Shown in pieces: positions 17,965-46,084 of a stretch of DNA of 64,000 nucleotides; the stretch's first letter is position 1, and every line of letters begins with the position of its first letter. A program made the translations under genes and the position numbers. The notes under the pieces are model-generated. The model saw nothing but the letters and a program-made list of their open reading frames with translations. It ran no database searches and had not been told where the DNA came from. Source of the DNA: an uncultured Litoreibacter sp. Lineage in GTDB: Bacteria > Pseudomonadota > Alphaproteobacteria > Rhodobacterales > Rhodobacteraceae. The stretch spans positions 186,001 through 250,000 of the forward strand of contig CANLOU010000002.1 in NCBI GenBank assembly GCA_947492995.1, in the 5' to 3' direction.

Positions 17965-18318
17965 ATGAAGCTGACAGAGATCGACTATGACGTTGCCAAA
18001 CCCATCGACAGCTATGGCGATGGCGGGTTTCGGGTGGCAGGTGAGGTGCATCAAGGCGCAATGCTGATGCTCCCCGACGAGGTGCTGCCATGGGGCGGAT
18101 ATGACGACACCGCCGCCATCATCGCCAATGCGGGCAAGATTGATGTGCTGTTTGTCGGAACCGGCGCCGAGATCGCCCATATCCCCGCCTCCACGCGCGA
18201 CGTCCTAGAGGCCGCCGGCATCGGCATCGAGATGATGGCCACCCCCGCCGCCTGCCGCACCTACAACGTGCTGCTCAGCGAGGGCCGCCGCATCGGCGCC
18301 GCGCTGCTGCCGGTGTAA
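17965..18318 (+). CDS. Mth938-like (DUF498) domain protein
   Basis: The 117-residue single-domain protein has the Mth938 pattern: G-D-G-G-F-R-V-A-G-E-V-H-x-G-x-M-L-M-L-P, D-V-L-F-V-G-T-G-A-E-I and C-R-T-Y-N-V-L-L-S-E-G-R-R. In other alphaproteobacteria this gene directly follows secF, so here the TauE and small secreted genes seem to have been inserted. The human relative NDUFAF3 helps assemble respiratory complex I, but the bacterial role is not settled. ATG 17965 gives the family start M-K-L-T-E. Confidence 0.87.
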   Translation: MKLTEIDYDVAKPIDSYGDGGFRVAGEVHQGAMLMLPDEVLPWGGYDDTAAIIANAGKIDVLFVGTGAEIAHIPASTRDVLEAAGIGIEMMATPAACRTYNVLLSEGRRIGAALLPV

Positions 18319-18388
18319 GCCCAAGGCCAAGCCGCGAGTCCGCCGTAAAGCGACCTCATCACCGCCCTAGGCCGCGTCAGGAATGGAA

Positions 18389-18520
18389 GTCCGCTATGCG
18401 GACGAAACGGTCGTTCGGATCGGGAAAAATCCGCTTCGAAGCGGATTGGGGCAAACGTCTTCGAAGACGTTTTTGAGCACGAATTGCAATTCGTGCGCAC
18501 AAGGCCGTTCGAACGGCCTT
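18389..18520. repeat. Array of perfect palindromes with 24-25 bp period
   Basis: After a first inverted repeat (GTCCGC-TAT-GCGGAC, 18389-18403) come four perfect 20-bp palindromes at 18428-18447 (half-site AATCCGCTTC), 18453-18472 (AAACGTCTTC), 18477-18496 (GCACGAATTG) and 18501-18520 (AAGGCCGTTC), separated by 5, 4 and 4 bases. The four sequences are unrelated beyond a frequent TTCGAA centre; only the palindromy and spacing are kept. The array lies between the convergent Mth938 and DUF1194 genes. Each unit could form a hairpin or cruciform; a role as double terminator or mRNA 3' protection is inference. Confidence 0.9.
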
Positions 18521-18575
18521 TTCCCGCTAATGGCTCAAAGCGGCCATTCAGCAGGCTACCAAGTCTCTAAAGGGC

Positions 18576-19277
18576 TTAACGCAGCCCGCCCACCATCAGG
18601 TTCTGTGTTTCACGCAGCAGCTTCTTGGTCATGGCGCGTTCAAAATCAGCGAAGCCCAGCGCGATCTCGATGAAGGCGTCCGGTCCCTGGATGATGCGTT
18701 TGCGGTAATACGCGGACAGCTCCATCAGATCCATCTGCCGCTCGTCGCGGCCCACCGTCAGGTCCAGCGCGATCACCAGCCCGTTGATGTCGCGGCCCAC
18801 CAGCCGCTTGCGGATCTCCTCCGGCGCGGGGCCGTCATTGTTGGTGCCGTCGCCAGATATGTCCAATGTGTAGCGCCAGCAGCCGGGGCGCTGCTCAAAC
18901 AGCCGCTCCGCAAACATCATCGCGCCGCCGATGCCGGTCGAGTTGATGCCGCCCCGCCGCTGTGTGGCCCGCAACGTGGCGGCCACACGCCCGATGGCCC
19001 CTGCGCTGTCCAGCGCCACCCAATCCACCAGCAGCCGTTGGTTGTCCCGCCCGGCCCACTCAAAAGCCGCGACCCAGACCGGGGCGTCAGGCGTCAGCAG
19101 CAGCTGCGCCTGCACCTGCGGGTTCATCAAGGCGTTGGCCAGCCCGTCCAGCTGCAGCCGGTACTCCACCGCGTCCACCGAGCCCGAGACATCCATCCCC
19201 AAAGCCAGCGCCAGCCGGCATTGTGCCTGCGCCGCACCCGTCAAAAGGCACAGCGCAAGCAGCGCGGCCCTTACCAA
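18576..19277 (-). CDS. DUF1194 (von Willebrand A-like) exported protein
   Basis: The 233-residue product has an N-terminal signal peptide (cleavage near A-Q-A-Q-C) and a vWA-like domain with a MIDAS-type D-V-S-G-S at about 29-33, followed by the second acidic loop D-I-S-G-D-G-T-N-N-D-G. DUF1194 proteins are typical of Rhodobacterales and Rhizobiales; their partners are unknown. The start is most likely TTG 19277, which begins the signal peptide and has GGAG about ten bases upstream. It overlaps the glyoxalase stop by seven bases. A longer TTG start at 19304 is possible. Confidence 0.85.
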   Translation of the reverse strand: MVRAALLALCLLTGAAQAQCRLALALGMDVSGSVDAVEYRLQLDGLANALMNPQVQAQLLLTPDAPVWVAAFEWAGRDNQRLLVDWVALDSAGAIGRVAATLRATQRRGGINSTGIGGAMMFAERLFEQRPGCWRYTLDISGDGTNNDGPAPEEIRKRLVGRDINGLVIALDLTVGRDERQMDLMELSAYYRKRIIQGPDAFIEIALGFADFERAMTKKLLRETQNLMVGGLR

Positions 19278-25001: not shown

Positions 25002-25099
25002 GGTGGGCAAATTTGCCCACCTTCCGCAACATCCCCCGGACGATCTCCCAGCGCCGTAGGGTGGGTGGTTCCGCGCCTCTGGCGCGTGGTTCACCCACC
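25002..25099. repeat. GTAGGGTGGG hairpin repeats
   Basis: The words GCCGTAGGGTGGG and GCGCCGTAGGGTGGG head two structures. One is a perfect 20-bp palindrome with half-site GGTGGGCAAA (25002-25021). The other is a nested hairpin with outer arms GGTGGGTG/CACCCACC (25060-25067 and 25092-25099) and inner arms CGCGCC/GGCGCG. GTAGGGTGGGC repeats of this look are found scattered in many bacterial genomes. Confidence 0.75.
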
Positions 25100-46030: not shown

Positions 46031-46084
46031 AAAACTCTTCGTCGAAGAGTTTTATTGTAAGAATTTTCGATCGAAAATTCTTAC
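46031..46084. repeat. Two tandem perfect palindromes between convergent genes
   Basis: AAAACTCTTCG-T-CGAAGAGTTTT (46031-46053, 11-bp arms) is followed three bases later by a perfect 28-bp palindrome with half-site GTAAGAATTTTCGA (46057-46084). They lie between the convergent LysR and DegT genes and have the style of the array at 18389-18520. T-runs follow each stem, so they may end transcription from both sides. Confidence 0.88.

Follow-up and report, generated by a model that had tools for sequence, protein, structure and literature searches.

Among known systems, those nearest to the locus analyzed here include the REP/BIME repeats of the GTAG and CGTC superfamilies, which are short hairpins behind genes, mostly in tandem or convergent gaps (PMC3733652). 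According to the main text of that paper, families 1 and 2 of the CGTC group have 8-bp stems with A-T feet, CGTC-1 repeats also have 4-nt loops, and CGTC repeats occur mainly as head-to-head dimers, not as rows of four. Intrinsic terminators, including bidirectional ones, place a stable hairpin near a stop codon, with an A-rich foot before the stem and a T-rich foot after it. Finally, stems can be maintained by template switching between their arms, a published mechanism; as outlined in PMC8794818, changes on both sides keep the pairing perfect.

We studied a row of hairpins in a 64,000-nucleotide stretch of DNA from an uncultured Litoreibacter sp. (the window). The row shares features with all three systems and differs from each. 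Unlike REP/BIME repeats, it and its relatives are rows (typically of four) of near-perfect palindromes with a fixed period; hairpins within one array have different stems, and REP tags and the CCA tail are rare. Unlike intrinsic terminators, the arrays have several hairpins in a row, the sequence downstream is C rich instead of T rich, and non-Watson-Crick pairs are far fewer (41/2352 in tandem arrays, versus 31/232 in 29 control hairpins). Unlike the template-switch stems outlined in PMC8794818, the stems here are also under strong short-term constraint and are linked to gene ends. We file the element as a variant among extragenic palindromic elements, outside the named REP families.

A dispersed family of hairpin rows

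The array lies between a DUF498 gene (PF04430; 17965 to 18318, + strand) and a DUF1194 gene (PF06707; 18576 to 19304, - strand), both of which have their stop codons toward it. As first read from the sequence alone, four 20-bp palindromes start at 18428, 18453, 18477, and 18501, and all four are perfect, with spacers of 5, 4, and 4 bases. The outer hairpins are AATCCGCTTCGAAGCGGATT (18428 to 18447) and AAGGCCGTTCGAACGGCCTT (18501 to 18520), both with the tip TCGA; the inner hairpins are AAACGTCTTCGAAGACGTTT (18453 to 18472, tip TCGA) and GCACGAATTGCAATTCGTGC (18477 to 18496, tip TGCA). The 15-base inverted repeat reported ahead of them, GTCCGCTATGCGGAC, is present at 18389 to 18403 and overlaps the degenerate left end of the element. 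In the 17-copy subfamily described below, the left flank (18398 to 18427) was multiplied along with the array. The right flank (18521 to 18552) contains AGCGGCCATTC at 18539 to 18549, which matches the left end (GAATGG..CCGCT) imperfectly in inverted orientation; together these may form a terminal inverted repeat, although this is unproven.

Perfect palindromes of at least 20 bp are rare by chance: six occur in the window, including four side by side, versus a mean of 0.12 and a maximum of 2 per copy in 50 first-order Markov copies of the window. The two outside the array are at 46057 to 46084 (28 bp) and 25002 to 25021 (20 bp). A search of positions 18200 to 18700 against Rfam (E up to 5) gave one match, which scored under the gathering threshold of its family and did not overlap the array. 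Structure prediction gives all four hairpins for + strand DNA and for - strand RNA. The minimum-energy fold of + strand RNA retains three of them and pairs the arms of the fourth with other bases. For the + RNA, + DNA, and - RNA folds, the energies have z scores of -4.5, -5.3, and -4.5, and 0, 0, and 1 of 200 shuffles were as good.

The window's own genome has 17 places that match a 151-base query over 122 to 151 bases, the other 16 at 92 to 97% identity, and it also carries older copies with other stems. Among the 17 copies, just 1 of 1088 stem cells and 1 of 272 loop cells are off consensus, versus 18 of 221 spacer cells (P = 1e-13 for stems and 4e-6 for loops); in the left flank, 33 of 510 cells are off consensus. 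The sole stem difference is an A-C mismatch, with no G-T. Three of the copies (L022, L031, and L035) have an extra right-flank stretch in common. The element ends in the consensus look inverted but are degenerate. When the flank consensus sequences were joined and used as a query, degenerate left modules turned up at other places, but no clean empty site did. Near the middle of L073 (G000:C1:550758), a degenerate left flank module stands alone around TTGCGGGACGAAG, and its ends are changed but still pair.

Relatives with the same layout and other stems occur in a congener (G017) and in a genome from another genus of the same family (G022). A covariance model built from 13 structure-aligned arrays matched 5 of 61 genomes: the window's own, 2 of 20 congeners, G022, and, weakly, one from another genus. 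In larger samples, the model matched at least 23 of 296 Rhodobacteraceae genomes (own included) and at least 1 of 289 genomes from the class, namely the window's own; these are lower bounds because strict filters were applied and at most 13 candidates per genome were scored, and the class sample includes some further genomes from the same family. In the species collection, 49 stretches contain the exact 20-mer of hairpin 4. The titles of 46 of these name Rhodobacteraceae, Rhodobacterales, or genera that we take to belong there; the other three are one alphaproteobacterium and two records titled Enemella evansiae. (The latter are the TN21-6 records L117 and L136, and the title of L117 is probably wrong.) The plasmids searched gave no match, and no viral contig contained the exact 20-mer. 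A literature search, which covered titles, the beginnings of abstracts, and few subscription journals, found no named family of such arrays. Separately, L129:6414, L143:2106, and L156:5958 have successive long palindromes, two or three per row, whose centers differ from those here (TTTCAAA, TTCTAGAA, and TTCTGGAA), and these are perhaps further families of a like kind.

The array is thus one copy of a dispersed multi-hairpin gene-end family, found in Rhodobacteraceae as far as we searched. The sequence-only reading had called the palindromes unrelated and had expected members of a dispersed family to be alike in sequence. The stems do differ within the array, but each resembles the hairpins at the same place in other genomes' arrays, and the same four sequences recur almost unchanged at 17 places in the genome. 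The argument against a dispersed family is therefore not supported: the copies are nearly identical here and diverged elsewhere.

The copy in the window is probably a recent arrival out of the 17-copy burst, because the DUF498 gene is present in 19 of 20 congeners and none of these 19 relatives has a perfect palindrome of at least 16 bp in the 500 nt behind its stop codon. The DUF1194 gene still adjoins DUF498 in only some of the 19, and the two genes abut or overlap in G006.

Anatomy and position relative to genes

Of 172 array places collected, 162 remained once duplicates and arrays with fewer than two hairpins were dropped. As they were found by the covariance model or by the exact 20-mer, they are biased toward well-paired copies. 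They are also partly related: 2 of the 162 have a 70-mer in common with another. Exactly four hairpins are present in 94 arrays, in which the centers are 24.1 nt apart (standard deviation, 0.9) and the spacers are mostly 4 to 5, 3 to 4, and 4 to 5 nt. The typical order is outer-inner-inner-outer. The first stem base is A (0.97), the second is A or C, and the third is G (0.90); the hairpins have A-T feet and mostly T-NN-A tips. The outer tip is TCGA in 178 of 185 four-base loops, and the inner tips are more variable.

Three further features that we considered were set aside. First, a closing helix between the G-rich left and C-rich right flanks was hardly longer than expected (3.82, versus 3.62 with shuffled partners; shuffle standard deviation, 0.11; 93 arrays). 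Second, arrays might avoid identical stems: 0 of 240 pairs were identical, versus 2.49 under the oriented null (standard deviation, 1.19; P about 0.05), and stronger figures were dropped, as they ignored position or orientation. Third, in 23 of 68 arrays, an outer core and the inner core next to it are reverse complements. Mean distances were close to shuffled, and we left arm swapping between neighboring hairpins as a curiosity.

Gene calls were made with our own scripts. For the 154 arrays with both neighbors called, 65 gaps are convergent, 81 are tandem, and 8 are divergent, so that 146 are in unidirectional or convergent gaps; among 174 baseline gaps of at least 100 nt, the corresponding numbers are 25, 95, and 54. 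Arrays are thus less often in divergent gaps (P = 8e-10, Fisher's exact test) and more often in convergent ones (P = 2e-8). The median distance from the stop codon to the first hairpin is 12.5 nt (130 convergent ends) or 14 nt (81 tandem arrays), versus 73 nt from a hairpin to a start codon (97 ends). The flanks are G rich before the array and C rich after it. In the 81 tandem arrays, we did not find a T-tract after the last hairpin: at positions 1 to 8, the frequency of T is 0.09 to 0.25 and that of C is 0.30 to 0.64. The array is therefore not a canonical intrinsic terminator.

Pairing, stem change, and constraint

In tandem arrays, read in the mRNA sense, 2,311 of 2,352 pairs are Watson-Crick, 15 are G-T, 11 are C-A, and 15 are other. 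Without the two arrays that share a 70-mer, there are 2,263 Watson-Crick, 15 G-T, 11 C-A, and 15 other pairs, and the medians are the same. Convergent arrays are similar (2,024 pairs: 1,994 Watson-Crick, 12 G-T, 7 C-A, and 11 other). As a control, we used 29 T-tract hairpins behind stop codons from the same loci, which were found with our own scripts at a score threshold and loop range slightly different from those for the arrays and a few of which look like chance; they have 232 pairs (201 Watson-Crick, 18 G-T, 5 C-A, and 8 other). G-T pairs are rarer in the arrays than in the control (P = 1e-11). Furthermore, G-T is in excess over C-A in the control (P = 0.01) and not clearly so in the tandem arrays (binomial P = 0.56), although the direct contrast of the two ratios was not significant (P = 0.14).

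Other features are also symmetric between the strands. The two commonest hairpin orders in tandem arrays, in the mRNA sense, are mirror images (11 versus 10), and loop variants do not clearly favor either strand there (for example, TGGA 11 and TCCA 6; TCAA 7 and TTGA 6). Together with the strict pairing, this symmetry points to selection on both strands. Because G-T is not clearly above C-A in the tandem arrays, an RNA role in the sense direction only is somewhat disfavored. The initial suggestion of paired RNA stems at the gene end fits the position of the arrays, and its sense-only form fares less well, with the caveat that the contrast with the control is not significant.

Stems change on both sides together. 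Among the 13 structure-aligned arrays, 18 of 32 pairs have two-sided changes, with 47 two-sided cells versus 1 one-sided cell; none of 500 shuffles reached the observed values, and the signal collapsed in slid controls. Most cells (94.6%) are paired, and the 5.4% that are unpaired are mostly in helix 3, of which 80.2% is paired.

The same pattern holds at orthologous sites. First, L225 in the window's own genome and L222 in G017 lie in a common gap whose flanks can be aligned (73% over 618 bases), and both members have changed in 10 of the 32 pairs. Second, L254 and L190, from different genera, have both flanking genes in common, and two-sided changes are present in 13 of the 32 pairs. Across the 2 x 32 pairs there is one non-Watson-Crick cell, which is in the first comparison. 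(A third two-flank pair, L285 and L132, was left out, as the hairpin numbers differ.) Arrays also lie behind one common protein of about 75 residues at seven loci (the copy tested had no Pfam match), behind rpoC in two genomes, and behind yebC in three (one protein of each was tested against Pfam). However, some coincidence is expected by chance with 209 flanking genes, so we count just the two-flank cases as proof of orthology. The initial proposal that palindromy and spacing are conserved and sequence is not thus holds across genomes and at orthologous sites, where the palindromes do not drift freely.

Over shorter times, the arrays hardly change. In three Nioella species with two arrays at one locus, 0 of 43 and 1 of 42 array sites are variable, versus 21 of 70 between the arrays (P = 1e-7) and 56 of 188 third codon positions (24 of 86 plus 32 of 102; P = 1e-9); behind the second array, 5 of 40 sites are variable. 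These vertically inherited arrays vary far less than synonymous sites do. A host function is suggested by the constraint, the gene-end position, and the way arrays persist at orthologous sites.

What the arrays may do

We tentatively favor a gene-end element that is selected for hairpins on both strands and acts as a two-way barrier at transcript ends, and we give this reading, which we infer from sequence comparisons, a probability of about 0.45. Transcripts from either side would fold into a row of stable hairpins. The row could stop read-through or define where it ends, together with Rho or RNA decay, and might shield the 3' end of the mRNA against 3'-5' exonucleases. If both directions count, then a G-U pair on one strand, which is A-C on the other, would not be tolerated. 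Several observations count against this barrier. The downstream sequence is C rich and has no T-tract. Tandem arrays should require the sense RNA alone and so tolerate G-U, yet they have nearly as many C-A as G-T pairs, so the model must assume that antisense transcription matters. The distribution is patchy (2/20 congeners, and 0/19 relatives at the window's own site), the unpaired cells are concentrated in helix 3, and the fourth hairpin is mispaired in the predicted + strand RNA.

A role at the level of DNA is a serious alternative; two such readings seem less probable than the barrier, and about equally so. In one, the palindromes act as cruciforms or single-strand hairpins that are recognized by a topology, replication, or transposition enzyme; the element would be nonautonomous and MITE-like, with hairpins that serve its own spread, and its position at gene ends would reflect target choice or tolerance. 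This would suit the near-perfect pairing with its balanced G-T and C-A counts in tandem arrays, the lone A-C mismatch in the 17 copies, the equally common mirror-image orders, the near-uniform outer tips, the burst with its flanks and possible terminal inverted repeat, and the orthologous genes without a palindrome in all 19 relatives. However, that balance does not differ significantly from the control; dead mobile copies would neither be as constrained as the fixed Nioella arrays nor persist at orthologous sites with renewed stems; and the REP transposase family (Y1_Tnp) has no match in the window's own genome (G000) and no association with the element (3 of 23 element-bearing genomes versus 28 of 273 others, treating two 296-genome samples as identical). 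Also, positive supercoiling between convergent genes disfavors cruciforms. In the other reading, which we consider about as probable, only the architecture matters: Watson-Crick self-complementarity on both DNA strands would be selected, unrelated sequences would serve one DNA-level function at gene ends, and new stems would perhaps arise by template switching from arm to arm.

It is quite improbable that template switching from arm to arm during replication (quasipalindrome correction) keeps the palindromes perfect while selection on function is weak or absent. Such correction has been described (PMC8794818), and it would account for two-sided changes almost without one-sided intermediates; single-pair two-sided differences include as many transversions as transitions (18 to 17), but we rejected this ratio as a discriminator, since it cannot separate template switching from independent compensation. 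Free correction in both directions predicts nearly neutral change in the stems, whereas the stems of the 17 copies and of the Nioella arrays change far more slowly than their spacers and the sequence between arrays, respectively, and the position at gene ends is left unexplained. Hairpin-templated repair, as proposed in the sequence-only reading, may therefore supply the two-sided changes but fails as the whole explanation. Ordinary REP/BIME repeats of the CGTC or GTAG families are the least probable, since the gene-end position and the resemblance to CGTC-1 in stems, feet, and loops are outweighed by the rarity of tags at hairpin feet (CGTC 4, TGTC 9, CCTC 6, GTAG 1, and the CCA tail 17, of 1,120 hairpin ends), by the dimeric arrangement of CGTC repeats, and by the absence of the six genus names that we looked for (Rhodobacter, Roseobacter, Ruegeria, Silicibacter, Paracoccus, and Dinoroseobacter) from the main text of PMC3733652.

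More broadly, extragenic palindromes are common, and their families are usually recognized through shared sequence. In this family, the main shared property is self-complementarity together with spacing, which can be traced at orthologous sites in several species. With these arrays, two questions can be tested directly: the route by which perfect stems evolve with hardly any wobble intermediates, and the function of palindromes at gene ends.
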